A DNA stretch of 64,000 bases. Source: Solibacteraceae bacterium. Lineage in GTDB: Bacteria; Acidobacteriota; Terriglobia; Bryobacterales; Bryobacteraceae. The DNA is taken from contig JAJPJX010000162.1 of assembly GCA_021324015.1 (NCBI GenBank), positions 1-64,000 on the forward strand, read 5' to 3'. The notes beneath the pieces were generated by a model. It was not told the origin of the DNA, did not search any database, and worked only from the letters and a program-made list of their open reading frames with translations. This document shows positions 1 through 56,093 of the stretch, one piece after another. A program made the translations under genes and the position numbers. How positions within the stretch are numbered: the first letter of the stretch is position 1; each line of letters opens with the position of its first letter.

Positions 1-206
1 GTTTCGGGAATTGGTTCGGGTAAGTCTGGGGTTTCCCCCCGGAGACTGCCGCCAATAAGCCCCGTTACGTTTCACCCCGCCCCGGTCCCCGCCAAAACGC
101 GGAGGACCGGAGGCGGTGACGATCACCTCCCCATCCGCCAGACACCCGCTTTACAGCCGTAGTGTGCCCATACGGCGCCCTCCTCCAAAGATAGAATCAA
201 TAGGTC
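1..206. other. 5' intergenic segment, no gene seen
   Basis: I see no convincing coding sequence or RNA gene here. A TAGAAT hexamer at 192-197 lies only about ten bases before the ATG of the amidohydrolase at 207. If it is a -10 element, the transcript would be nearly leaderless. No matching -35 element is evident. Confidence 0.4.
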
Positions 207-1925
207 ATGCTTCGTCCCATCGCCCTCATCGCCGCGCTCACCGCCTCACTGGCGGCGGCCGACTCCGACCTCATCCTGCACCACGGCAAAATCGTCACCG
301 TCGATTCCAGGTTCTCCATCGCCCAGGCCGTCGCCATCAAAGCCAACAAAATCGTGGCCGTGGGCGCCGGCCGCGAGATCCTCGCCGCCGAACGCGGGCC
401 GCACACCCGCGTCATCGATCTGCAGGGCCGCACCGTCCTCCCCGGCCTCATCGACAGCCATGTGCACGCCCTCGAAGCCGGCCTCAGCGAGTTCCGCGGC
501 AAGCTGCCTCCCCTCGATTCCTTCGCCGCCGTGCAAGCCTATATCAAGGACCAGGCGCGCCGCACGCCCCCGGGCCAGTGGATCGTGGTCCCGCGCACCT
601 TCCCCACCCGCCTCCACGAACTGCGCATGCCTACCCGTGAGGTCCTCGACGTGGTCACCGACCACCCCGTGCTGTTCGACGCCAGCTACATCGTCATCTT
701 GAATTCCATGGGCCTCAAAGTCAGCGGTATCACCCGCGACACGCCCAACCCGCCCCGCGGCGAAATCGTCAAGGACGCCAACGGCGAGCCCAACGGCATC
801 CTCAAAAACGCCGCCAAACTGGTCAAGGGCCTGAACGCCCACGCCTCGTTCACCGAGGACGAAAAGCTCCAGGCTCTCGAACACATGCTGCGCCTCTACG
901 TCGAGGCCGGCCTCACTTCCGTGGGCGACCGTGCCGTCAACGCCGAGCAAATCGCCCTCTACCAGAAGCTCAAGGCCCAGGGCCGCCTGCCCATCCGCGC
1001 CGTGCTCACCTGGCGTCCGGACGGCTCTCGCCCCGCCCAGGAACTGGTCGATGCGATCAATCACGCGCCCTACACCACCGGTACCGGCGACGACTGGCTC
1101 AAGTTCGGCGCCTTCAAGCTCACGCTCGATGGCGGCATGACTATCGGCACCGCTTACCAGCGCCACCCCTACGGCCCCTTCGGCCGCCAGCTTTACGGCA
1201 AGACTGATCCCGATGATCGCGGCCAGCTCTTCATCCCGGCCGACAAGCTTCTCACCATCATGCGCGCGGCGCGCAACCGCGGCTGGCAGTTGACCACTCA
1301 CGATCAGGGCGGCGGCGCCATCGACGCCTGGCTCGACTGCCTCCAGGCCCTTGACCGCGAGCGCCCCATCGCGCCCTCCCGCTCCTTCGTTATGCACGCC
1401 AGCTTTCAGAGCCCCGAAGCCATTGCCCGCATGCAGAAAATGGGCCTCCTCGCCGACGTGCAGCCCCAGTGGCTCTACCTCGATGGGCCGGCGCTCGAAA
1501 AAGTCTTCGGCCACCAGGGCATGCGCTATTTCTTCCCGCTGCGCAGCTACCGCAACGCCGGCATCCTGCTGGCCTCCGGCAGCGACCACATGATCGGCTG
1601 GGATAAGAACAAAGCCGTCAATCCCTACAATCCCTTCCTCAGCATGTGGATCGAAATCGCCCGCCGCACTGACCGCGGCGAAGTCCTCTACCCCGAAGAA
1701 CGGCTCACCCGCGAAGAGGCCCTCCGCTCCCACACCATCTGGGCGGCTTACATGCAGTTCGCCGAACAGGTCAAAGGGTCGCTCGAGCCCGGCAAACTCG
1801 CCGACCTCGTGGTCATTGACCGCGACTACCTCACCTGCCCGGAAGACCAGATCAAAGACATCCAGCCCCTGATGACTTTCCTCAACGGCAAACTCGTCTA
1901 CTCCGCGCCGGACATGGGAAAATAA
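207..1925 (+). CDS. secreted YtcJ-like amidohydrolase
   Basis: A 572-residue metal-dependent hydrolase of the amidohydrolase superfamily, YtcJ/Amidohydro_3 type. Residues 1-18 form a short signal peptide ending near SLAAA, so the enzyme probably acts outside the cytoplasm. An N-terminal composite beta domain is followed by the metal-binding HVH motif (His85, His87). Later conserved pieces are THDQGGG, MHASFQ and the C-terminal GSDHMIGWD. The tail (GKLADLVVIDRD) is the usual return to the beta-sandwich. Relatives hydrolyse amides or N-formyl compounds, but the substrate cannot be told from sequence. The next gene starts 7 bases after the stop, so the two are probably co-transcribed. Family confidence is high, substrate unknown. 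Confidence 0.9.
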   Translation: MLRPIALIAALTASLAAADSDLILHHGKIVTVDSRFSIAQAVAIKANKIVAVGAGREILAAERGPHTRVIDLQGRTVLPGLIDSHVHALEAGLSEFRGKLPPLDSFAAVQAYIKDQARRTPPGQWIVVPRTFPTRLHELRMPTREVLDVVTDHPVLFDASYIVILNSMGLKVSGITRDTPNPPRGEIVKDANGEPNGILKNAAKLVKGLNAHASFTEDEKLQALEHMLRLYVEAGLTSVGDRAVNAEQIALYQKLKAQGRLPIRAVLTWRPDGSRPAQELVDAINHAPYTTGTGDDWLKFGAFKLTLDGGMTIGTAYQRHPYGPFGRQLYGKTDPDDRGQLFIPADKLLTIMRAARNRGWQLTTHDQGGGAIDAWLDCLQALDRERPIAPSRSFVMHASFQSPEAIARMQKMGLLADVQPQWLYLDGPALEKVFGHQGMRYFFPLRSYRNAGILLASGSDHMIGWDKNKAVNPYNPFLSMWIEIARRTDRGEVLYPEERLTREEALRSHTIWAAYMQFAEQVKGSLEPGKLADLVVIDRDYLTCPEDQIKDIQPLMTFLNGKLVYSAPDMGK

Positions 1926-38844: not shown

Positions 38845-39792
38845 ATGGCCATCAGCCGCCGTACCTTCCTCGGCCAGACCGCCGCCGCCCTGAGCGCGCA
38901 AAGCAGAAAAGGCCGCCTGGTCATCGACACGCACCTGGAAGTCTGGACCATCGACCCGCGCTTTCCCTTCCACCACCCCGAGCATCCCGAAGCCAAGCCC
39001 ACGATGGACGCCACCATCGACGACCAGGTGGCCGACATGCGCGAGTTCGACATCCGCTACACCGTGCTGGTAAACCCCCGCTATTACGGCTGGGACAATT
39101 CCTACATCAGCTATTCCCTGCACCGCTATCCCAAGCTGTTCGTGGCCCACGGGCTCATCAATCCGGAAGATCCCAAGGTGGCCGACAACCTGCGCTACTG
39201 GGTGAAGGAGCATGGCTTCCAGGGCATGCGCTTCAGCCCCATCTATCACCCCAAATCCACCTGGCTCAACGACAAGGGGCAGTATCCGCTGTGGCGCGAG
39301 GCGGAAAAACTGGGAGCGGTCTTCAATTACTACATCCTGCCGCACCAGATGCCCATGCTGGAAGAGATGGCCGGCCGCTTCCCCGGCGTCAAAATCGTGG
39401 TGGACCACCTGGGCAAGCCGGACCTGAAGTCCCCCGACCCCTGGCCCGAGTTCCGCAAGATGTTCCGCCTGAAACGCTTCCCGCAGGTTTGGATCAGCGC
39501 CTCGGAACCCTACGAGCTGTCCCTCACCAAGCAGTTCCCCTATCGCGACACGTATCCTTTCTTCAAAGCCGTGTACGAGGAATTCGGCGGCAAGCAGCTC
39601 ATCTGGGGCACGGGATATCCGCGCCCGCGCTGGGAACTGCCGCTGGACAAGGAACTGGAGTTCGTCGATTCCGTGCTGGACTTCTATACCGCGGCGGACC
39701 GCGAACTGCTGCTGGGCCGCAACGCGCTCCGCATCTGGAAGTTCCCCAAAGACGCGCCGGACCGCTTCACCCCGCAATCCGGTAAGCGATAA
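38845..39792 (+). CDS. Tat-exported amidohydrolase-2-family protein
   Basis: A 315-residue TIM-barrel hydrolase with a twin-arginine leader (ISRRTFLGQTAAAL). The barrel begins GRLVIDTHLEVW. The metal motif HxH usual in this family reads DTHLEVW, so one ligand is changed. It resembles the L-fuconolactonase/2-pyrone-4,6-dicarboxylate lactonase group (FAHGLINPEDPKVADNL, KIVVDHLGKPDLK). There is no Shine-Dalgarno before the ATG. TATAGT at 38830-38835 within TTGATATAGT could serve as an extended -10 for a leaderless transcript, or translation is coupled to the gene before it. It overlaps the convergent membrane-protein gene by 26 bases. Confidence 0.8.
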   Translation: MAISRRTFLGQTAAALSAQSRKGRLVIDTHLEVWTIDPRFPFHHPEHPEAKPTMDATIDDQVADMREFDIRYTVLVNPRYYGWDNSYISYSLHRYPKLFVAHGLINPEDPKVADNLRYWVKEHGFQGMRFSPIYHPKSTWLNDKGQYPLWREAEKLGAVFNYYILPHQMPMLEEMAGRFPGVKIVVDHLGKPDLKSPDPWPEFRKMFRLKRFPQVWISASEPYELSLTKQFPYRDTYPFFKAVYEEFGGKQLIWGTGYPRPRWELPLDKELEFVDSVLDFYTAADRELLLGRNALRIWKFPKDAPDRFTPQSGKR

Positions 39793-43945: not shown

Positions 43946-43987
43946 ACTCCCACAAGCAAGGCCCATCCCACGCAAAGGAGGCAGTGT

Positions 43988-45103
43988 ATGCTCACTCGAC
44001 GGAGTTTCGCGGCGAGCGCCGGCATCGCCGCCGCGATTGCGCGCATGTTGCCGGAAATGGCCTACGCGCAACGCGCGCTGGTCCAGGGCGATTTGCCCAA
44101 GGACATGGTCTGGCTGAGCGCCAACGAAAATCCTGCCGGACCGCCGGCTTCTTCGATCCGGGCCATGTCCGAAGTCCTGCCCTCCGCCTGGCGCTACCAC
44201 TACCAGGAATTCCGCGATTTCTACGACCAGCTTGCGCGCAGCGAAGACCTCTCCGCCGACCGGATCCTGGTGGGCGCCGGTTCGAGCGAGGTCCTGCACG
44301 CAGCGGTGGAAGCCTTCACGGCTCCGGACCGGCCCTTCGTGTGCATCCACCCCACCTACGAAGGCCCAACGGAGGTGGCGCGCGCCCTGGGCCGCACCGT
44401 CATCCGCGTACCGCTGGCGTCTAATTATGGGGCCGACGTGCACAAGCTCGCCGAGGCGGCCGAGCAATCCAAGGCCGGCGTGGTCTACCTCTGCAATCCC
44501 AACAATCCCACCTCGGCGGTCACCCCCAAAGCGGAGATCGCCTGGCTGGTAAACAATCTCCCGGCTGAAACCATCCTGCTGATCGACGAGGCCTATATCC
44601 ACTTCGGCGAAACACCGGAACTGGAGACCGCGCTGGTGCACGTGCGTCAGGAACGCAACGTGGTGGTCACGCGCACCTTCTCCAAGATCTACGGGATGGC
44701 GGGCCTGCGCGCCGGCTTCGCCTGCGCCCGTCCGGATCTCATCGCCCGCCTGGCGCCCTTCCGCAACAACGTGATCTCTATCGTAACCGTGCGCGCGGTG
44801 CTGGCGGCCATCGCCGAAAACCAGACTTTGGTCCCCGAGCGCCGCGCCGCGCTCGCCCGCACGCGGCGCAACCTCTGCGCCTGGCTGCGCGAGCGCAATG
44901 TGGGCTATATCCCGCCGAACGCCAATTTCATGATGATCGACGTGGGGCGCGATGCCCGCGAGTTTGTCTCCCGCATGCCTGCCATGGGCGTGGCCGTCGG
45001 CCGTCCCTTCCCGCCCCTCGACAACATGCTCCGCGTCACCATCGGAACCGAAAGTGACATGGAGAAATTTCGCGAAGTTTTTTGGAAAGTCTATAACGGA
45101 TGA
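43988..45103 (+). CDS. Tat-exported PLP-dependent aminotransferase (HisC-like fold)
   Basis: A 371-residue class I/II aminotransferase. AAAGGAGG precedes the ATG. The N-terminus LTRRSFAASAGIAAAI is a twin-arginine signal, so the folded, cofactor-loaded enzyme is probably exported. The HisC-like features are LSANENPAGPP, ILVGAGSSEVLHAAVEAF, VYLCNPNNPTSAV, the LLIDEAYIHF aspartate, and the Schiff-base Lys233 in RTFSKIYGMAGLRAGF with its phosphate-binding arginine. HisC transaminates histidinol phosphate, but an exported copy more likely acts on another amino acid. The stop overlaps the start of the RidA-repeat gene (ATGA), tying the two products together. Confidence 0.88.
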   Translation: MLTRRSFAASAGIAAAIARMLPEMAYAQRALVQGDLPKDMVWLSANENPAGPPASSIRAMSEVLPSAWRYHYQEFRDFYDQLARSEDLSADRILVGAGSSEVLHAAVEAFTAPDRPFVCIHPTYEGPTEVARALGRTVIRVPLASNYGADVHKLAEAAEQSKAGVVYLCNPNNPTSAVTPKAEIAWLVNNLPAETILLIDEAYIHFGETPELETALVHVRQERNVVVTRTFSKIYGMAGLRAGFACARPDLIARLAPFRNNVISIVTVRAVLAAIAENQTLVPERRAALARTRRNLCAWLRERNVGYIPPNANFMMIDVGRDAREFVSRMPAMGVAVGRPFPPLDNMLRVTIGTESDMEKFREVFWKVYNG

Positions 45104-46311
45104 AAACTCTCTCCCTCTTGCTGTTGAGTGCCGCCGCGCTGGCGGCCGCCAACGTGGAAGTGGTCTTCCCTCCGGGCGCCAAGCCCGTGGGTCCCTATAG
45201 CCCCGGCATTTTGGCCGGTGAGTTCCTGTACGTCTCCGGCCAGGGCGCGCGACAGCCCGACGGGCAGTACCCGCCCACTTTCGAGGGACAGGTCAAGCAG
45301 TGCCTGGAGAACATCAAGACCATCGTGGAGGCCGCGCACCTTACGATGGACCACGTGGTCTACACGCAGATCTACCTCAGCGACGTTTCCAAGTACGAGC
45401 TCATGAACCCGGTGCTCGATCAGTATTTCGGCCGGAATCCACCGGCCCGCGCCACCGTGGGGGTCTATCGCCTGCCCGTGGAAACACCCGTGGAAATCAG
45501 CGCCGTGGCCGTGCGCGACCTGTCGCGCAAAAAGGCCATCATTCCGCCCAGCTATAAGATCGCCGGGCCGTTCGTCCCCGGCGTGCAGGTTGGCGACCGC
45601 GTGTTTATTTCCGGCTTCCTGGGCCGCGATCCGGCCACCGGCAACGTTCCAGCCGATCCCGCCGCGCAGGTGCAGCTCGCCCTGGACCGTTTCCACACCG
45701 TGCTGGCCGCCGCGGGCATGGACTGGGGCAACGTGGTGTTCGTCAACCCGTACCTCACCAGCGAAATTCCCATGGGGGTGATGAACCGCGTGTACGCCCA
45801 GCACTTTGAATTCGGCAACACGCCGGCGCGCGCCACCATCCCGGTGCACGCCCTGCCCCTGGGAGCGCATATGGAATTCACCGGCATCGCCGTGGCCGGC
45901 GCCGCGAACCGCCGCGCTGTCCGCCCCAAGAACATGGCCGCCAGCCCCACGGCCAGCCCTTGTGTCTTCGCCGGAGACACGTACTACTGTTCCGCGAAAT
46001 CCGGATTCATTCCCGGACCAAACGGCGGCATCTGGGCGGCGACCGTCGAGGACCAGGTTCGCCAGACCATGCGCAACCTCCTGGACGGGCTGGAAGAAGC
46101 CGGCCTGGATTTCTCCCACGTAGTGGCCAGCAACGTGTACCTCGACAACATCGACGACTTCTCGAAAATGAACGGCGTATACGGGAAGTACTTCAAGGAT
46201 GCGCCGCCCACGCGGACCACAGTGTGCCCGCTGCCCCCGGTGGAGCGCAAACTCGATCCTGCCGGCCTTTCTCCGAAGCTGGAAGAGATTTCCATCATCG
46301 CCGTGAAATAG
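45100..46311 (+). CDS. secreted protein of three tandem RidA domains
   Basis: A 403-residue exported protein (signal LSLLLLSAAALAAA). It is three complete RidA/YjgF domains at about residues 20-140, 148-267 and 277-402. The repeats align by their active-site arginine and glutamate: Arg117 (PPARATV) with Glu132 (PVEISAVAV), Arg244 (TPARATI) with Glu259 (MEFTGIAVA), Arg372 (PPTRTTV) with Glu396 (EEISIIAVK). The Arg spacing is 127 and 128 residues, one RidA length each. RidA proteins are homotrimers that hydrolyse reactive enamine/imine products of PLP enzymes. This looks like a covalent trimer. Its gene overlaps that of an exported PLP aminotransferase. No internal stop or frameshift is seen. 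Confidence 0.88.
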   Translation: MKTLSLLLLSAAALAAANVEVVFPPGAKPVGPYSPGILAGEFLYVSGQGARQPDGQYPPTFEGQVKQCLENIKTIVEAAHLTMDHVVYTQIYLSDVSKYELMNPVLDQYFGRNPPARATVGVYRLPVETPVEISAVAVRDLSRKKAIIPPSYKIAGPFVPGVQVGDRVFISGFLGRDPATGNVPADPAAQVQLALDRFHTVLAAAGMDWGNVVFVNPYLTSEIPMGVMNRVYAQHFEFGNTPARATIPVHALPLGAHMEFTGIAVAGAANRRAVRPKNMAASPTASPCVFAGDTYYCSAKSGFIPGPNGGIWAATVEDQVRQTMRNLLDGLEEAGLDFSHVVASNVYLDNIDDFSKMNGVYGKYFKDAPPTRTTVCPLPPVERKLDPAGLSPKLEEISIIAVK

Positions 46312-46395: not shown

Positions 46396-46441
46396 CCGAA
46401 AAGCCGCCGTTCGGCAATCGTGCGCCCATGGGACCCTCCGG

Positions 46442-46447
46442 TATACT
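46442..46447 (+). promoter_or_regulatory. -10 element of the RND efflux operon
   Basis: TATACT lies 18 bases before the ATG at 46465. The ribosome site GGGGGAAAG follows. No clear -35 is visible at the usual distance, consistent with an activated promoter. Confidence 0.4.
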
Positions 46448-46464
46448 CCGGGGGAAAGAATCCC

Positions 46465-47754
46465 ATGGAATCCACATCTCCTACCGGGCTCCAAACGGAA
46501 CGGCCTCCCGCACCGCCGGAGGTCCACCCCGCCAAGCGGCCTTCTTCTTCCCGGCTCGGCCGCTGGCTTTTCCTGGCCGCCCTGGCGGGCGCCGCCGCCT
46601 ACTACTATTACGGGCCGCGTCTCAAGCCGCCCCAACCGGCCGCGTCCGCGCCCGCCCGCGCCGGCTTCCGCCGCGGCCCGGGCATCATCCCGGTGGTCAC
46701 GGCCAAAGCGCAACGGGGCAATATCGGGGTCTACTTTAATGGCCTGGGCGTGGTCACCCCCATCTACACGGTGACGGTGAAAAGCCGCGTAGACGGCCAG
46801 CTAATGCAGGTGCTCTACACCGAAGGCCAGCCCGTGCGGGCCGGCGACCTGCTGGTCGAGATCGACCCCCGCCCCTTCGAGGTGCAGTTGACCCAGGCCC
46901 AGGGGCAGCTCATGCGCGACCAGGCCCTGCTCGCCAACGCGCGCGTGGACCTGGCGCGCTATCAGACCCTGTTAAAGCAAAACGCCATCCCGGAGCAGCA
47001 GTTGGCCACCCAGCAGGCTCTCGTCGCGCAGTATGAGGGCGCGGTCAAGGCCGACCAGGGCCAGGTCGATAGCGCCCGGCTCAACCTGGTGTACTGCCGC
47101 ATCACTTCGCCCATCACTGGCCGCGTGGGTCTGCGCCTGGTCGATCCCGGCAACATCGTGCACGCCAACGACGCCAACGGCCTGCTCGTCATCACCCAGG
47201 TGGATCCCATCAGCGTCATCTTCACCATCGCCGAGGACCAGCTTCCCGCCGTGCGCGAAAAATTGCGCGCCGGCCGCAAGCTGCGCGTGGACGCTTACGA
47301 CCGCGAGATGAAGAACCGCCTGGCTCAGGGCGTCCTCCAGACCCTGGACAATCAGATTGACCAGACCACCGCCACCCTGCGCCTGCGCGCCATGTTCGAC
47401 AACAAAAACGACGCCCTGTTCCCCAACCAGTTTGTCAACGCCCGCCTCCTGGTCGAAGAGAAATCCGGCGTCACCCTGGTACCCAACGGCGCCATCCAGC
47501 GCAACTCCCAGGCGACCTACGTGTGGCTGGTCAAGCCGGATCAGACGGTCGCCGTGCGCACGGTCACCGTGGGCACCGTGGAAGCGGACCAGGCCGAGAT
47601 CCTCTCCGGCGTCGCTCCCGGCGATGTCCTGGTCACTGACGGTGTGGACAAGTTGCAGGAGGGTAGCAAGGTCAGCACTCGTGCCAACACGGAGGGCGGG
47701 GCCAGGGGAGCCGCACGAGCCAAGGGAGACCGGCCCCGGAAAAATCCCCAATGA
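46465..47754 (+). CDS. RND efflux periplasmic adaptor (MdtA-like)
   Basis: A 429-residue membrane-fusion protein. The ATG at 46465 has GGGGGAAAG upstream; an in-frame ATG 45 bases earlier lies before the -10 element. A signal/anchor helix lies at residues about 35-52 ([17 protein letters not shown]). The lipoyl and hairpin domains follow: [55 protein letters not shown]. The beta-barrel region has [18 protein letters not shown] and [16 protein letters not shown]. The tail ([16 protein letters not shown]-like) is basic and probably disordered. It joins the two permeases to the outer-membrane factor. Its stop overlaps the first permease start (ATGA). Confidence 0.93.
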
Positions 47755-50700
47755 GCCCCTCCCGCACGTTCATTCTCCGGCCGGTGGCCACCTCCCTGCT
47801 CATGGTGGGCATCATGCTCGTTGGCGCGGTGGCCTACAAGCAACTGCCGGTCTCGGCCCTGCCGCAGGTCGATTACCCCACTATCCAGGTGGTCACCTTC
47901 TATCCCGGCGCCAGCCCCGACGTGATGGCCTCCGCGGTCACCGCGCCCCTGGAGCGCCAGTTAGGCCAGGTGCCCGGGTTGCAGCAGATGACCTCCACCA
48001 GTTCCAACGGCAGCTCCGTCATCACGCTGCAATTCAACCTCAGCTTGAATATCGACGTGGCCGAGCAGGAAGTCCAGCAGTCCATTAACGCCTCCGGCAC
48101 CTACCTGCCGGCGGATCTCCCCACCCCTCCCATTTACAGCAAGATCAATCCCGCGGACACTCCCATCCTGACCCTGGCTCTCACCTCCACGAGCCTGCCG
48201 CTTTCCAAGGTGGAAGACCTGGCCGATACCCGGCTCGCCCCCAAGATCTCCCAGTTACCCGGCGTCGGCCTGGTGAGCATCAGCGGCGGCCAGAAACCCG
48301 CCGTGCGCATTCAGGTCAATCCCACGTCGCTCGCATCCGTGGGTCTTAACCTCGAGGACCTGCGCAGCTCGCTGGTTGCCACCAACGTGAACCAGGCCAA
48401 GGGCAACTTCGACGGTCCCCACCAGGCCTACACCATCGGCGCCAACGACCAGTTGCTCTCGAGCGCCGACTACTCCCGCCTGGTCGTCGCCTACCGCAAC
48501 GGAGCACCGGTCAAGCTCACCGACATAGCCGACGTCACCGACGACGCCGAAAACATCCGCCAGGCCGCCTGGATGAATGACGCCCCCGCCGTCATCATGA
48601 ATATCCAGCGGCAGCCCGGCGCCAACATTATCTCCGTGGTGGACCGCATCAAGCGCCTGCTCCCCCAGCTCACCACCGCGCTACCCTCTTCCATTCAAGT
48701 CAGCATCCTCACGGACCGCACCACCACCATCCGCGCCTCGGTCGAAGACGTGCAGTTCGAGCTGATGCTCTCCGTGGGCCTGGTGGTGATGGTCATCTTC
48801 CTGTTCCTGCGCAACTTCTCCGCCACCATCATCCCCAGCATCGCGGTGCCGCTCTCCCTGGTGGGCACTTTCGGCATCATGTACCTGCTGGGCTACAGCC
48901 TGAACAATCTGTCCCTCATGGCGCTGACCATCTCCACCGGATTCGTGGTGGACGATGCCATCGTGATGATCGAGAACATCATGCGCTTCATCGAGGAGGG
49001 CGACCGTCCCCTCGAAGCCGCGCTGAAGGGTTCCGAGCAGATCGGCTTCACTATCGTCTCCCTCACCATCTCCCTGATCGCCGTGCTCATCCCGCTGCTG
49101 TTCATGGGCGATATCGTGGGCCGCCTCTTCCGGGAATTCGCGGTCACCCTGAGCGTCACCATTCTGGTTTCCGCCGTGGTTTCCCTGACGCTGACGCCCA
49201 TGATGTGCGCCCGGCTGCTCAAGCACACCCCGGAAGCCGCGCAGGGCCGCTTCTACCGCCACTCCGAGCGCGCCTTCGAGGCGGTTATCGCCCTTTACGG
49301 CAAGACCCTGAAGTGGGTGTTGCGCCACCAGACCATGACCCTCATGGTGGCCGCCGCCACGCTGGTTCTGACGGTCGTGATGTTCATACGCATCCCCAAG
49401 GGCTTCTTCCCCATTCAGGACACCGGCGTGATTCAGGGCGTCTCGGAAGCCGCCGAGACCACCTCATTCCAGGCCATGGCCGAACGGCAGCAGCAGTTGG
49501 CGCATGTGATCCTGGCGGATCCGGCCGTGGACAACCTCTCTTCCTTCATCGGCATCGACGGCACCAACACCACGCTGAACAGCGGCCGCATCCTCATCAA
49601 CCTCAAGCCGCTCGAAGAGCGCAAAATCAGCGCCAGCGACGTGATCCGCCGCTTGCAGCCCGATCTGGCGAAAGTCGCCGGCATCACCCTCTACATGCAG
49701 CCGGTGCAGGATCTCACCGTGGAAGACCGCGTCTCCCGCACCCAGTTTCAGTACACCCTGGAAGATCCCAATACGGCCGAGCTGAACGAATTCGTGCCCC
49801 GCATGATGCAAAGGCTGCAAACCCTGCCGGAACTGCGCGACGTGGCCAGCGACCAGCAGGTGCAGGGGCTGCGCACCCGCCTGGTCTACGACCGCGACAC
49901 CGCCACCCGTCTGGGCATCACGCCATCGATGATCGACAACACCCTCTACGACGCCTTCGGCCAGCGCCAGGTCTCCACCATGTTCACGCAGTTGAATCAG
50001 TACCACGTGGTGCTGGAAGTCAAGCCCGAATTCCGCACCGATCCCACGGACCTGCGCCATCTCTATCTGCGCTCCTCGGCCGGCTCATCGGTGTGCAGCT
50101 CGCCGGGCGTGGTGGCGGGCGGCTCGGCCGCCACCAACCTGTTCGGACCCTCCAGTTCGTCGGCCAGCACCTCCCTGGCCCCCGGCATGAGCGTGTCCAC
50201 GGGAGCGCTCTCCTCCGGCGTTTCCTCGTTCTCCAATGCGGCCTCCGCCGCCGTCTTCGGCGCCGGCCCCGCGCCCGCCGCAGTGGCCTACCCCAACGGC
50301 TGCCAGGTTCCGCTCAGCGCCTTCACCCACGTCGAGTACACGACCGTGCCCATCACCGTCAATCACCAGGGGCAATTTCCCGTCGTCACCCTCTCCTTCA
50401 ACCTGGCTCCCGGGGCCTCGCTGGGCGACGCCGTCAACGCCGTCAACCGCGTGAAGGACGAGATCCACATGCCGGCCAGTATTCAGGCGGACTTCCAGGG
50501 CACCGCGGAGGCCTTCCGCGCTTCTCTCGCCAACGAACCAATCCTCATCCTGGCCGCGCTGGTCACCGTGTACATCGTCCTGGGGGTGCTCTATGAGAGC
50601 TACATTCACCCCATCACCATCCTCTCCACTCTGCCTTCGGCCGGCGTAGGCGCCCTGCTGGCCCTCAACATCTGCCGCAACGATTTCAGTGTGATTGCCC

Positions 50701-51077
50701 TGATCGGCATCATCCTGCTGATCGGCATCGTCAAGAAAAACGGCATTATGATGATCGACTTCGCCCTGGAGGCCGAACGCAAAGAAGGCATGCCCGCCGA
50801 ACAGGCCATTTATCAGGCATGCCTGCTGCGCTTCCGCCCCATCATGATGACCACCATGGCGGCCTTGCTCGGCGGGCTGCCCCTCGGTCTGGGCACCGGC
50901 GTAGGCTCGGAATTGCGCCGTCCCTTGGGCATCACCATGGTCGGCGGGCTGATCCTCAGCCAGATGCTGACCCTCTACACCACGCCCGTGATCTATCTTT
51001 TCTTCGACCGCCTGGCGCGGCGCCTGCGCGGCAGTCAGGTGGCCGAGGAAGGTGCGGAGCTGGTGCCGGCGGACTGA
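47751..51077 (+). CDS. RND efflux permease, MdtB-like, with Ser/Ala-rich insertion
   Basis: An 1108-residue HAE1-type inner-membrane pump. Twelve membrane helices and two large periplasmic loops are recognisable ([60 protein letters not shown]). The proton-relay acidic pair is in [13 protein letters not shown]. It differs from its 1039-residue neighbour by an insertion of about 70 residues at about 778-852, rich in Ser, Ala and Gly, bounded by Cys782 and Cys851, in the second periplasmic loop. The Cys pair could close the loop by a disulfide. The next gene starts three bases after the stop. Together with the second permease it should form a MdtBC-like heterotrimer. Confidence 0.92.
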
Positions 51078-51080
51078 GCC

Positions 51081-54000
51081 ATGAACATCGCCAAACCCTT
51101 CATCCACCGGCCCGTCGCCACTACTCTGCTGACCCTCGCGGTGGCCCTGGCCGGCGGCGTGGCCTTCCGGTTTCTGCCTGTCTCGCCGCTGCCGCAAGTG
51201 GACTTTCCGACGATCTCGGTCAACGCCGCTCTGCCCGGCGCCAGCCCGGAAACCATGGCTTCCTCGGTGGCCACGCCCCTGGAGCGCCAGTTCGGGCGCA
51301 TCGCCTCGGTCACCGAGATGACCTCCGCCAGCTATCTGGGCAGCACCAGCATCACTCTCCAGTTCGATCTGAACCGCAACATCGATGCGGCCGCCCGCGA
51401 CGTGCAGGCCGCCATCAATGCCGCCCGCGGCTATCTCCCCGCCAACCTGCCCATGAACCCGACCTATCGCAAGGTCAACCCCGCCGACTCCCCTATCTTC
51501 CTCCTCTCGCTCACCTCCGACGTGCTGGACAAGGGCCGCATGTACGACGCCGCGTCCACCATCATGGCCCAGAAGCTCTCCCAGGTGAAGGGTGTCGGCC
51601 AGGTGATTGTGGGCGGCAGTTCCCTGCCCGCCGTGCGCATCCACCTCAACCCCATGGCGCTGAACAAGTACGGCATCGGCCTGGAGGATGTGCGCGGCGT
51701 GCTATTCGCCGCCAACGCCAATAATCCCAAGGGCCACTTCTCCAACCACCTGCGCACCTGGGAGGTCGGCGCCAACGACCAGATCTTTAAGGCGGCCGAA
51801 TACAAGCCCCTGATCATCGCCTACCGCAGCGGCGCCGCCGTGCGTGTCTCCGACGTGGGCGAAGCCCTGGATTCGGTCGAGGATCTGCGCAACGCCGGCT
51901 ACTTCAACGGCAAGCCGTCCGTGCTGGTCATCATCTTCCGCCAGCCCGGCGCCAACATCATCGGCACGGTGGACCGCATCCGCGCCGTGATGCCGCAGTT
52001 GCAGGCCGCCATTCCGCAGTCCATCAAGCTGACCGTCAGCAACGATCAGACCACCACCATCCGCGCCTCCGTGCACGATGTCGAGCGCGCCCTTAGCATC
52101 GCCGTCGTTCTGGTCATCCTGGTGGTCTTCGTGTTCCTGCGCAGCGTGCGCAGCACGATCATCCCCAGCGTGGCCGTCCCGGTCTCCCTGATCGGCACCT
52201 TCGGGGTGATGTATTTGTGCGGCTACAGCCTCGACAACCTCTCCCTGATGGCCCTGACCATCTCCACCGGCTTCGTCGTGGACGACGCCATTGTGGTCAT
52301 TGAAAACATCACACGCTACCTGGAAATGGGAATGCACCCGTTTCCAGCCGCGCTGCGCGGCGCCCAGGAGATCGGCTTCACGGTGGTCTCCATGAGCGTT
52401 TCTCTGGTGGCCGTCTTCATCCCCCTGCTGCTGATGGGCGGCATCGTGGGCCGTCTGTTTCGCGAGTTTGCGGTCACCCTCTCGGTGGCCATCGCCGTTT
52501 CCCTGGCGGTCTCCCTCAGCACCTCGCCCATGATGTGCGCGTATATGCTGCGCCAGCACGTCTCCCACGGCTGGGCCTACCGCACCAGCGAGCGCGCTTT
52601 CCGGTGGATCGTCGCCTTCTACGGACGCACGCTGGAGCGCGTGCTGCGCCATCCCGCCATCACGCTGGCGGTTTTGTTGGCCACCATCGGCCTCAACGTG
52701 AAGCTCTTCCTGCACGTGCCCAAGGGTTTCTTCCCGCAACAGGATAACGGCCGCCTCATGGGCCAGATCCAGGCCGACCAGGACACCTCTTTCCAGGCCA
52801 TGAACAACATCCTGACACGCATGATCAAGGTGGTTCAGGACGATCCCGCGGTGCTGGCGGTGAACGGCTTCACCGGGGGAGGCGGGGGCCCGGGCGGAGG
52901 CTCGACCACCAACACCGCGCGCATGTTTATTGCCCTCAAACCCATCGAGGAGCGCGGCATCTCCGCCGATCTGGTCATCGCCCGGCTGCGCCCCAAGCTT
53001 GCCCGCATCCCCGGCGCCACGCTGTACCTGCAGGCCTCCCAGGACATTCGCGTGGGCGGCCGCATGAGTTCGGCGCTCTATCAGTTCGCCCTGCGCGGCG
53101 ATAACCTCCGCGATCTCACCGCCTACGGCCCCCGCATGTTGCGCGAGCTGCGCAGCCTGCCCGAAATCACCGACGTCAACAGCGATCAGCAAAACAACGG
53201 GCTGCAATCCGTGCTCGAATACGACCGCACCACCGCCGCGCGCTTCGGCATTTCCCCGCAATTGATCGACAACACGCTGTACGACGCCTTCGGCCAGCGC
53301 CAGGTCTCCACCATGTACACGTCCCTGAACCAGTACCACGTCATCATGGGCGTGGCCCCGCAATACTGGCAGGATCCCCAGATGCTCAACCAGATCTATG
53401 TGCGCTCGCCCCGGGGCCAGCAGGTTCCCCTGGGCGCCATCGCCCACAGCGTGGCGACTACCGCGCCGCTCGCCGTCACGCACCAGGGCCTGTTCCCGGC
53501 CGTCACTTTTTCCTTCAACCTGGCGCCGGGAACGGCTCTCGGCGACGCCGTGGACGCCATCCAGGAGGCCTCCGGCCGCGTGCACCTGCCGCCCACCATC
53601 CACACCACGTTCGCCGGAACCGCACAGGCCTATCAGGACTCCCTCAGCAACGAGCCCGTGCTGATCGCCACCGCCCTGGCCGCCGTCTACATCGTGCTCG
53701 GCATCCTTTACGAGAGCTACATTCACCCCATCACCATCCTTTCCACCCTGCCTTCGGCCGGCGTGGGAGCCTTTCTGGCCCTGATGCTTTTCCACATGGA
53801 GCTCAGCATCATCGCCATGATCGGCATCATCCTCCTGATCGGCATCGTCAAGAAAAATGCCATCATGATGATCGACTTCGCCCTCGGCGCCGAGCGCCTG
53901 GAAGGCAAGAACTCCCGCGACGCCATCTATGAGGCTTGCCTGCTGCGCTTCCGTCCCATCCTCATGACCACCCTGGCGGCGCTGCTGGGCGCGCTGCCGC

Positions 54001-54200
54001 TGGCCCTCGGCCACGGCGTCGGCTCCGAGCTCCGCCGCCCCCTTGGCGTCACCATCATTGGCGGCCTCATCGTCAGCCAGATCCTGACGCTCTATACCAC
54101 TCCGGTTGTGTACCTTTATCTGGACCGCCTTCATCTCTGGTGGGAGCGCCTCCGCGGCAAACAGCGCCGCCGCATCACGCCGGCGGCATCGGAGGCCTGA
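51081..54200 (+). CDS. RND efflux permease, MdtC-like
   Basis: A 1039-residue pump closely related to the one before it. It has the same HAE1 architecture without the insertion: [41 protein letters not shown] with the charged Asp pair, and [19 protein letters not shown] Gly-rich patch (GGGGGPGGGSTTN) occurs in the first half. Two such permeases in one operon is the MdtABC pattern, where a B2C1 trimer exports bile salts, novobiocin and similar amphiphiles; the substrate here is unknown. Confidence 0.93.
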   Translation: MNIAKPFIHRPVATTLLTLAVALAGGVAFRFLPVSPLPQVDFPTISVNAALPGASPETMASSVATPLERQFGRIASVTEMTSASYLGSTSITLQFDLNRNIDAAARDVQAAINAARGYLPANLPMNPTYRKVNPADSPIFLLSLTSDVLDKGRMYDAASTIMAQKLSQVKGVGQVIVGGSSLPAVRIHLNPMALNKYGIGLEDVRGVLFAANANNPKGHFSNHLRTWEVGANDQIFKAAEYKPLIIAYRSGAAVRVSDVGEALDSVEDLRNAGYFNGKPSVLVIIFRQPGANIIGTVDRIRAVMPQLQAAIPQSIKLTVSNDQTTTIRASVHDVERALSIAVVLVILVVFVFLRSVRSTIIPSVAVPVSLIGTFGVMYLCGYSLDNLSLMALTISTGFVVDDAIVVIENITRYLEMGMHPFPAALRGAQEIGFTVVSMSVSLVAVFIPLLLMGGIVGRLFREFAVTLSVAIAVSLAVSLSTSPMMCAYMLRQHVSHGWAYRTSERAFRWIVAFYGRTLERVLRHPAITLAVLLATIGLNVKLFLHVPKGFFPQQDNGRLMGQIQADQDTSFQAMNNILTRMIKVVQDDPAVLAVNGFTGGGGGPGGGSTTNTARMFIALKPIEERGISADLVIARLRPKLARIPGATLYLQASQDIRVGGRMSSALYQFALRGDNLRDLTAYGPRMLRELRSLPEITDVNSDQQNNGLQSVLEYDRTTAARFGISPQLIDNTLYDAFGQRQVSTMYTSLNQYHVIMGVAPQYWQDPQMLNQIYVRSPRGQQVPLGAIAHSVATTAPLAVTHQGLFPAVTFSFNLAPGTALGDAVDAIQEASGRVHLPPTIHTTFAGTAQAYQDSLSNEPVLIATALAAVYIVLGILYESYIHPITILSTLPSAGVGAFLALMLFHMELSIIAMIGIILLIGIVKKNAIMMIDFALGAERLEGKNSRDAIYEACLLRFRPILMTTLAALLGALPLALGHGVGSELRRPLGVTIIGGLIVSQILTLYTTPVVYLYLDRLHLWWERLRGKQRRRITPAASEA

Positions 54201-54220
54201 AGGCGGGCTAGGGCAACGCT

Positions 54221-54502
54221 GTGTTTACCATGACGGTTCTCTCCAACCCCGCCGGACCGCTCACCCTCGCTCTCGAGGGGAATGTGAGCGAGGACGCACT
54301 GCCGGAGATTGTCCGCCTGATCCAGGACGGAGAACAGAGCCGGAGGCGCGTGGTCCTGGACCTCGGCGACGTCACGCTGATGGACCGCGTGGCCGTGCGC
54401 TTTTTCGCGAGCCAGCTCCGGCGCGGCATCGAACTGACCAACTGCCCCTCATACCTGAAGCACTGGATTTCCCGGGAAACCATTCATGAACCTGAGAAGT
54501 AA
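54221..54502 (+). CDS. small STAS-domain protein
   Basis: A 93-residue protein from the GTG at 54221; an ATG at 54230 is the alternative. It matches STAS-type anti-anti-sigma proteins: LTLALEGNVSEDALPEI, RRVVLDLGDVTLMDRVAVRFF and GIELTNCPSYLKHWI. The phosphorylatable Ser of SpoIIAA is replaced (DVTLMDRVA), so it is more likely a binding module. It lies between the permease and the outer-membrane factor; its 3' end overlaps the next gene by 17 bases. Confidence 0.78.
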   Translation: MFTMTVLSNPAGPLTLALEGNVSEDALPEIVRLIQDGEQSRRRVVLDLGDVTLMDRVAVRFFASQLRRGIELTNCPSYLKHWISRETIHEPEK

Positions 54503-56093
54503 TTCCACGCGCGACCGCGTCTTACCGCGCCGCTTCCGCTCCTTGCGGTCGCGGCTCAGCCACACACTGCCAACCCGCGCACCTGGCTTCCGAGCCGCGG
54601 CCATCGGGGGCGGTGTTTCGGGAGCGGTCCTCCTCTTCGCCCTCATCTTTCTTGCCGCCTGTGCCGTCGGCCCGAAGTATCAGCGCCCCGGCGCCCCGGT
54701 GCCGCCGGCCTTCAAAGAATCGCCGCCCGCCGGCTGGAAGGAGGCCCAACCCAGCGACGGGGTCCTGCGCGGGAAGTGGTGGGAGATTTACCACGATCCC
54801 CAGCTCAACGCTCTGGAGGAGCAGATCGACGTCTCCAACCAGAGCGTGCAGGCCGCCGAAGCCCAATTCCGCCAGGCGCGTGCCGCGGTGGGCGTGGCGC
54901 GCGCTGCGCTCTACCCGGTGGTCACCGGCGGCCTCTCCATGAGCGCCGTGCGCACCCCGGGAAGCTTCACCGGCGGCGGCCAGGTGGCTTCCACCTCCAG
55001 CATCCGGGGCGCGTACAACCTGCCCTTCTCCTTGAGTTGGGAGCCAGACCTCTGGAACAACCTGCGCCGCGCGGTGGCCGCTAATTCGGCCTTGGCACAA
55101 GCGTCCGCCGCCGGTCTCGCCGGCCTGCACCTGCTTTTCCAGGCGGAACTGGCCCAGGCCTACTTCGAGATCCACGGCCTCGATGGCGACCAGCAGGTGC
55201 TCGCCAACACCGTCAAATCTTACGAGGAGTATCTGCAACTGACCAAGAACCGCTACGCCAGCGGGGTGGCCTCTATGGCCGATGTCGCCCAGGCCCAAAC
55301 CCGGCTTGAAACCACCCGTGCGGAACTGGTGGATCTCGGCGTCGCCCGCGCCCAGTTTGAGCATGCCATCGCCATTCTCACGGGCCGGCCTCCCGCGGGC
55401 TTCTCCATTGCCGCTCAGCCGATTCACATCCTGCCCCCGGCCGTCCCTATCGGCTTGCCCTCCACCCTGCTGGACCGCCGGCCCGATATCGCCGCCTCCG
55501 AACGCCAGATAGCCGCCGCCAACGAACAGATCGGCATCGCCCAGGCCGCCTACTATCCCTCGATCATCCTGAGCGCCGCCGGCGGATCCGAAACTACCCA
55601 CTTCCTGGAATTCCTCACCTGGCCCAGCCGCTACTGGTCCGTCGGAGCCGAACTTGCCCAGACGATCTACGAACGCGGGCGCCGGCGCGGTTTCGTCCGC
55701 GAGGCCCAGGCCGCCTATGACGCCACTGTGGCATCATACAGACAGACGGTGTTGAACGCCTTCCAGCAGGTGGAAGACAGCTTGTCCGCGCTGCGCGTCC
55801 TGGCCGAAGAGACCGGCGTGCAGAACAACGCGGTCAAGGCGGCGCAGGATTCTCTGACCATCTCCACGGCCCAGTACAAGGGCGGTGTAGTCAGCTATTT
55901 GCAAGTAATTACGGCGCAAACTGCCCTGTTGCAGAATCAGCGCACGTCGGTGGATATCCTCACCCGGCGCATGGTGGCGAGCGTGCAGCTTATCGAAGCC
56001 CTGGGCGGCGGATGGGACGCCTCCCAGTTGCCTACGGCCAAGCAGTTGATGGCCGGCGCGCCCCAGACCCCCAGCCCGGCGCAAAACAGGTAA
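54486..56093 (+). CDS. outer-membrane efflux lipoprotein, NodT/OprM family
   Basis: A 535-residue TolC-like factor. The lipobox LAAC at about residue 55-58 (FLAACAVGPKYQRP) is the expected lipidation site. An unusually long 50-residue leader precedes it, part of which is encoded by REP-like repeat copy c (54534-54560). The two OEP repeats are visible: ALEEQIDVSNQSVQAAEAQF and SVQAAEAQFRQARAAVG, then VASMADVAQAQTRLETTRAEL and GVVSYLQVITAQTALLQNQ. It completes the tripartite pump. Confidence 0.9.
   Translation: MNLRSNSTRDRVLPRRFRSLRSRLSHTLPTRAPGFRAAAIGGGVSGAVLLFALIFLAACAVGPKYQRPGAPVPPAFKESPPAGWKEAQPSDGVLRGKWWEIYHDPQLNALEEQIDVSNQSVQAAEAQFRQARAAVGVARAALYPVVTGGLSMSAVRTPGSFTGGGQVASTSSIRGAYNLPFSLSWEPDLWNNLRRAVAANSALAQASAAGLAGLHLLFQAELAQAYFEIHGLDGDQQVLANTVKSYEEYLQLTKNRYASGVASMADVAQAQTRLETTRAELVDLGVARAQFEHAIAILTGRPPAGFSIAAQPIHILPPAVPIGLPSTLLDRRPDIAASERQIAAANEQIGIAQAAYYPSIILSAAGGSETTHFLEFLTWPSRYWSVGAELAQTIYERGRRRGFVREAQAAYDATVASYRQTVLNAFQQVEDSLSALRVLAEETGVQNNAVKAAQDSLTISTAQYKGGVVSYLQVITAQTALLQNQRTSVDILTRRMVASVQLIEALGGGWDASQLPTAKQLMAGAPQTPSPAQNR
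54534..54560. repeat. REP-like palindromic repeat, copy c (within coding sequence)
   Basis: TCCGCTCCTT then GCGGTCGCGGCTCAG. It begins 32 bases after the STAS stop codon and is translated as part of the leader of the outer-membrane lipoprotein. Confidence 0.55.

Follow-up and report, generated by a model that had tools for sequence, protein, structure and literature searches.

A 64,000-nucleotide stretch of the genome of a Solibacteraceae bacterium (assembly GCA_021324015.1, contig JAJPJX010000162.1, positions 1 to 64,000 of the forward strand; hereafter the window) contains, at 43,988 to 46,311, two overlapping genes predicted to encode an exported aminotransferase dependent on pyridoxal 5'-phosphate (PLP) and an exported protein made of three RidA domains (3x-RidA). 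The genome (G000) is 8.2 Mb and the window lies on its contig C111. The aminotransferase gene (43988..45103, + strand, 371 aa) starts with the ATG at 43988, behind a ribosome-binding-type sequence AAAGGAGG (43974..43981, + strand), and its TGA stop codon (45101–45103) overlaps the ATG (45100–45102) of the 3x-RidA gene; the resulting ATGA (45100..45103, + strand) had been pointed out in an earlier reading of the DNA without database searches (the sequence-only reading). The N-terminus of the aminotransferase, MLTRRSFAASAG..AYA-Q, is by its motif of the twin-arginine translocation (Tat) type, with a putative signal peptide at residues 1-27 (TRRSF ... AYA; 43988..44068, + strand), and a TFSK motif places the PLP lysine at residue 233. 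The Tat-type motif and the intact Lys233 claimed earlier for a HisC-like enzyme are thus both present in the translation. The protein matches the class I/II aminotransferase family PF00155 (158.2 bits), and its nearest NCBIfam model is PRK09105 (361.9 bits, cut-off 444); the PtaA model spans residues 2-367 (288.9 bits, cut-off 500), and the HisC model TIGR01141 gives 217.2 bits (cut-off 276.55). Since these three scores lie below the curated cut-offs, we regard the enzyme as a relative of PRK09105, PtaA and HisC and a member of none.

The 3x-RidA protein (45100..46311, + strand, 403 aa) has a Sec-like N-terminus, MKTLSLLLLSAAALAAA-N, in which the translation and its hydrophobicity suggest a signal peptide at residues 1-17 (45100..45150, + strand). 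The three RidA domains follow on the same strand at residues 22-140 (45163..45519), 145-268 (45532..45903) and 275-403 (45922..46308). Both PF01042 (239.3 bits in total, cut-off 27.3) and TIGR00004 (235.1 bits, cut-off 106.25) match in three stretches, and the domains are 31-35% identical to one another. Each carries an equivalent of the catalytic arginine Arg105 of TdcF (Arg117, Arg244 and Arg372) and of TdcF Glu120 (Glu132, Glu259 and Glu396), so that all six residues named in the sequence-only reading are found. The interval between arginine and glutamate is 15 residues in domains 1 and 2 and a longer 24 in domain 3, and the equivalent of TdcF Tyr17 is present in domain 1 only (Tyr33). The combination of Glu and Tyr in every site, which marks the imine-hydrolysing RidA subfamily, is therefore not found in 3x-RidA. 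Passages of Niehaus et al. (PMC4433059) describe RidA as hydrolysing imines derived from the enamines of PLP enzymes, and report that loss of the arginine nearly abolishes activity and that alanine at the Tyr or Glu position has little effect in Salmonella enterica RidA.

An AlphaFold2 model computed from an alignment of the window protein and 18 relatives is one compact body, with a mean predicted local distance difference test of 89.7 and a predicted template modelling score (pTM) of 0.91. Single RidA chains match one domain of this model, and one chain of a chorismatase (4bps, 5a3k) matches all three; the alignment with 4bps has a Z score of 27.0 and a root-mean-square deviation of 2.9 over 284 residues and covers 23..385 of the model, although identity is ~12% and the chemistry is different. 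Chorismatase is a one-chain YjgF-like pseudo-trimer, in which a YjgF-type fold has been repurposed. The pTM and the whole-chain match are consistent with the one-chain RidA trimer that the sequence-only reading had predicted. Passages of PMC1884159 place the active sites of TdcF between subunits, with Glu120 bonding across the interface to residue 107, and each site of the fused protein should therefore combine two domains.

The closest relatives in named records come mostly from acidobacterial metagenome-assembled genomes, and 18 of 21 loci returned by a related-locus search encode (nearly) full-length 3x-RidA proteins with 55-68% identity; the 3x-RidA in VFZE01000072.1 (L027) is 65% identical. 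Matches at E<=1e-40 occur in 91 of the 257 genomes of the order, representing 42 of 84 genera, and in 14 of 396 genomes of a phylum sample (the window genome is counted in both). Given the 18 near-full-length relatives and the 91 genomes, the three-domain arrangement is not a chance feature. We analysed 101 loci, namely the window and 100 stretches that cover 88 of the 113 other places in the order and all 14 in the phylum sample; the 25 order places left out belong mostly to genus g233 or are fragments. Genes in other genomes were called by a custom script and genera are counted by group codes. In 79 of the 101 the 3x-RidA protein is at least 45% identical to that of the window (the close relatives), and in 22 it lies below this.

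Most close relatives retain the three arginines (R117 in 67/79, R244 in 79/79 and R372 in 76/79), and the glutamates of domains 1, 2 and 3 are kept in 72, 61 and 31, respectively. The sequence-only reading had suspected from the longer interval that the third site may differ, and the replacement of Glu396 by Gln in 47 of the 79 bears this out; judged by these residues, the third active site is diverged. Loss of R117 coincides with loss of E396 (Glu kept in 0/12 as against 31/67; Fisher p 0.0024) and of E259 (Fisher p 0.024), and because the sequences share kinship these p values are not independent tests. A tree of the domains (78 rows) groups them mainly by domain position, with few branches resolved.

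Export signals were judged throughout by motif and hydrophobicity rather than with a trained predictor. A hydrophobic N-terminus is present in 74 of the 79 close 3x-RidA proteins (the window's included) and 19 of the 22 more distant ones, and in 0/101 of the internal control stretches. The close proteins in L159, L160, L161 and L181 are plainly without a signal and that in L144 is borderline. In L136, L161, L163, L165, L181 and L187 the 3x-RidA gene lies directly behind genes that by eye resemble tsf-pyrH-frr; L161 and L181 in this setting lack a signal, as do L159 and L160, which belong to the same genus. Four of six other, single-domain RidA proteins read in the window genome (L002, L005, L006 and L008, on contigs C53, C198, C64 and C4) also have by eye export-type N-termini, three Sec-like and one Tat-like, and L229 holds a possible fifth. 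With these four and the 74 close relatives, the earlier statement that exported RidA is unusual is not supported.

A HisC-like enzyme is encoded directly upstream of 3x-RidA on the same strand in nine of the 101 loci, from seven genera (L088, L089, L091, L095, L104, L119, L134, L147 and the window). All nine enzymes have a twin-arginine (RR) motif, and the junction is a 4-base ATGA overlap in six and a spacing of 0-2 bases in three. The two-gene order with Tat-type and Sec-type signals, which the sequence-only reading had proposed to look for elsewhere, thus recurs in eight further loci, and the gene pair is a real, conserved feature.

The commoner PLP neighbour of 3x-RidA belongs to the DgaE family (TIGR01437), which is not that of the window's own partner. 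A DgaE-like enzyme is encoded in 20 of the 101 loci, directly upstream in nine, directly downstream on the same strand in six, adjacent on the other strand in three and further off in the cluster in two. TIGR01437, the model of the DgaE-family ammonia lyases, is the best match of the two that were scanned, both under its 385.3-bit cut-off (155.4 and 169.9 bits). An RR motif is present in 18 of the 20, in some behind an over-long frame; of the other two, one is cut by a contig end and one is ambiguous. The H163A variant of D-glucosaminate-6-phosphate ammonia lyase releases an enamine, according to passages of PMC9529869. In a 30-row alignment, His at position 163 is found in none of the 20 neighbours and none of eight homologues from the window genome, and the PLP lysine is kept in 28/28. 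Provided that the loop alignment is right, these DgaE-like enzymes could release an enamine and so need RidA. The neighbours differ from DgaE itself in the low scores of the two scanned, their Tat-type N-termini and the lack of His-163. The family is greatly expanded in the window genome (22 matches, ~18 of them strong genes); of the eight genes read there, six have an RR motif close to the start of the protein, and L188 and L192 have a His at 162.

From these features we propose, as probable and with modest confidence, that the 3x-RidA protein is exported and acts as a tethered RidA trimer on the enamines or imines that exported PLP enzymes release. Its predicted fold is that of a trimer whose three domains share a single chain, and the sites would be composite and lie between domains if their make-up follows that of TdcF. 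Tat-exported PLP enzymes would release enamines or imines outside the cytoplasm, and the exported 3x-RidA would hydrolyse these to a keto acid and ammonia; from its sequence, a function as enamine/imine hydrolase is plausible. The gene order, the overlap, the conserved arginines, the export-type N-termini and the recurrence with two PLP families are observed, and the location, activity and substrate of the protein are inferred. The translationally coupled partner in the window would be the HisC/PtaA-like enzyme, which may supply the substrate, and in relatives the partner would more often be a DgaE-family enzyme, sometimes with a deacetylase or a lactonase-type domain. These DgaE-family, deacetylase and lactonase-type partners point to the breakdown of amino acids or amino-sugar acids.

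Several observations weigh against this proposal, and some of them concern the pairing itself. Neither PLP partner is present in 72 of the 101 loci (29 have one). Close orthologues of the HisC-like enzyme number 49 at E<=1.4e-112 (the window's counted) in 44 of the 257 genomes, with a 70% identical fragment in G396 left out. We examined 32 of them, namely those of the window, L134 and L147 and 29 others: ten adjoin 3x-RidA, and 22 have no 3x-RidA within ~1.5 kb (one of these is cut by a contig end). Genomes with 3x-RidA make up 20 of the 44 that have a close orthologue and 71 of the 213 that do not, a difference that by hand tally is not significant (Fisher p 0.17). In L218, one of the ten adjoining cases and the second 3x-RidA locus of genome G449, a HisC-like gene with an SRRSF motif lies 2 bases upstream of a 3x-RidA gene without a signal. 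With the partner in only one of the 18 near-full-length loci of the related-locus search and 22 of the 32 orthologues lacking 3x-RidA nearby, we rejected a strict two-gene system; the ten adjacent orthologues and the non-significant co-occurrence describe a pairing that is recurrent but facultative. A neighbourhood without functional meaning would account for the 22 separate orthologues and the lack of genome-level association, but all nine HisC-linked loci, from seven genera, have the same order and strand with a 4-base overlap or 0-2 bases between the genes, and a second PLP family stands beside 3x-RidA in 20 other loci, so that we consider a neutral arrangement very improbable. On a tree of the 101 rows made by a quick method, with 21 of 98 inner branches open and all rows counted, the HisC-linked state needs 6 changes, the DgaE-linked state 12 and the cytochrome-linked state (see below) 3, and gain and loss are indistinguishable.

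Other points on the same side concern the proteins. Exported RidA is, by the N-termini read, common in the window genome; four close relatives of the 3x-RidA protein have no signal; the Glu396 position is Gln in more than half of the close relatives; and a Tyr equivalent to TdcF Tyr17 is widespread in domain 1 only (77/79). The absence of His-163 depends on how a loop is aligned between sequences of low identity, and the solved structure 8t7j also lacks this residue in the same alignment; since all DgaE homologues examined are without it, those adjacent to RidA are not singled out. No DgaE-like gene listed for the window genome has a RidA match within 20 kb. In addition, the product that leaves an ordinary aminotransferase is a keto acid rather than an enamine. 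The sequence-only reading had suggested a periplasmic system that consumes an enamine or imine product; a source of this product in the aminotransferase of the window is not supported as it stands, and the DgaE-linked relatives make the better case for product clearing. Because an ordinary transaminase makes no enamine, the HisC-like enzyme would either carry out elimination or cyclisation chemistry, or RidA would guard its PLP.

The second option leads to a different role for 3x-RidA, that of a guard rather than a pathway step, in which it would destroy 2-aminoacrylate-type enamines from other exported enzymes and so protect the PLP of the exported HisC-like enzyme. A transaminase partner is easier to explain by this role than by product clearing, and the role agrees with a genome that has ~18 DgaE-like genes, none of those listed lying near a RidA match. 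Passages of Niehaus et al. (PMC4433059) report that aspartate aminotransferase, which is prone to 2-aminoacrylate damage, clusters with Rid genes, and passages of PMC6206403 that PLP is carried into the periplasm by the Tat-exported enzyme that binds it; cofactor brought there in this way may be hard to replace. Protection alone does not explain why the gene overlaps so closely with that of a single specific enzyme, or why some relatives are fused to a gluconolactonase-type domain, and we regard it as rather unlikely to be the correct account.

The remaining neighbours of 3x-RidA are varied. In six of the 101 loci (L093, L097, L109, L110, L112 and L132) the gene directly upstream encodes a cytochrome c that has two CxxCH motifs, with a 4-base ATGA overlap in L109, L110, L112 and L132. 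The 3x-RidA proteins of L146, L149 and L151 have an extra C-terminal domain of ~280 residues, which in L151, the one protein searched against Pfam, matches SGL (gluconolactonase-type, 169.3 bits). L096 encodes a deacetylase, PRK09237 (397.8 bits, above the cut-off of 371), and cluster mates of it lie upstream of 3x-RidA in L111, L174 and L176. Further neighbours include Amidohydro_2 proteins, a rhamnonate-dehydratase-like protein (L088) and a UxuA-like protein (L148), and several neighbours have Tat-type motifs. Such company, with the three C-terminal fusions, could also mean that the tethered trimer is another enzyme or a binding protein of exported sugar-acid breakdown and no longer an imine hydrolase; the unequal sites and the chorismatase as best whole-chain match fit this idea, and the retention of the three arginines in most close relatives (67, 79 and 76 of 79) and the recurrence of PLP partners speak against it. 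We think a repurposed fold of this kind unlikely.

The fused form of RidA is already known. Passages of Niehaus et al. (PMC4433059) named 3x-RidA in 2015 with EF_0115 as an example, proposed a covalently linked trimer, and noted that Rid genes cluster with PLP enzymes. The tandem of three RidA domains is the same in the window protein, which differs in its export signal and its coupling to PLP enzymes with export signals; that paper, searched for such statements, makes no mention of a signal peptide, the periplasm or secretion. Tat export of PLP enzymes is likewise known from PvdN and PtaA, which act in pyoverdine tailoring (passages of PMC6206403). Like these, the window aminotransferase would be a Tat-exported PLP enzyme, and by motif it has the PtaA-like combination of TRRSF and PLP lysine; unlike them, it has a RidA partner, which is not mentioned in those passages, and its PtaA score, as given above, is well under the cut-off. 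Another likeness is to OngB-OngC-OngD, which serve the oxidative utilisation of chitin, a set of deacetylase, PLP ammonia lyase and RidA that resembles the company of 3x-RidA in its relatives; according to passages of PMC9537276, OngD is essential for growth on GlcNAc1A, in a role unknown there. OngB and OngC are predicted to be cytoplasmic, OngD has a single domain and OngC is of fold type III, whereas the systems described here have export signals, a fused RidA and a DgaE-type enzyme. We found no account of an exported 3x-RidA, or of its pairing with Tat-type PLP enzymes, in the open-access literature searched, and the exported form and its PLP company look unreported.

Elsewhere in the window, an Amidohydro_2 protein with a Tat-type N-terminus is encoded at 38845..39792 (+ strand), not adjacent to the pair. 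Members of its cluster (c20) sit directly upstream of 3x-RidA in L103 and L111, and it possibly belongs to the same pathway as the pair. Downstream of the pair, at 46420-56093, lies a resistance-nodulation-division (RND)-type efflux set consisting of an HlyD-like protein, two large transporters (named by eye) and an outer membrane efflux protein. Eight stretches around other RidA genes of the window genome were read, and one, L226, has a possible PLP neighbour: at L226:3891-6724 a RidA of one domain and with an export-type N-terminus is flanked by a Cys/Met-type PLP enzyme on one side and by a Tat-type mandelate-racemase-like protein on the other. With family names assigned by eye, this appears to be a second neighbourhood of exported RidA and a PLP enzyme.

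The best-known role of RidA is protection inside the cell from the enamines that PLP enzymes make. A more far-reaching version of our proposal, which we offer as speculation and consider doubtful, is that the order runs an extracytoplasmic route for breaking down amino acids or amino-sugar acids. Tat-exported PLP enzymes without an internal proton donor would free enamines on this route, and the exported 3x-RidA, a tethered trimer whose sites would be unequal and specialised, would be the obligatory enzyme that completes deamination outside the cytoplasm. If true, a lineage that exports PLP enzymes together with a covalently tied RidA trimer would show RidA chemistry in a compartment other than the cytoplasm, one in which lost PLP may not be easily replaced, and would offer a natural test of RidA as guard or as pathway enzyme. 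With a single chain, unlike a homotrimer, it would also be possible to inactivate the three sites one at a time.

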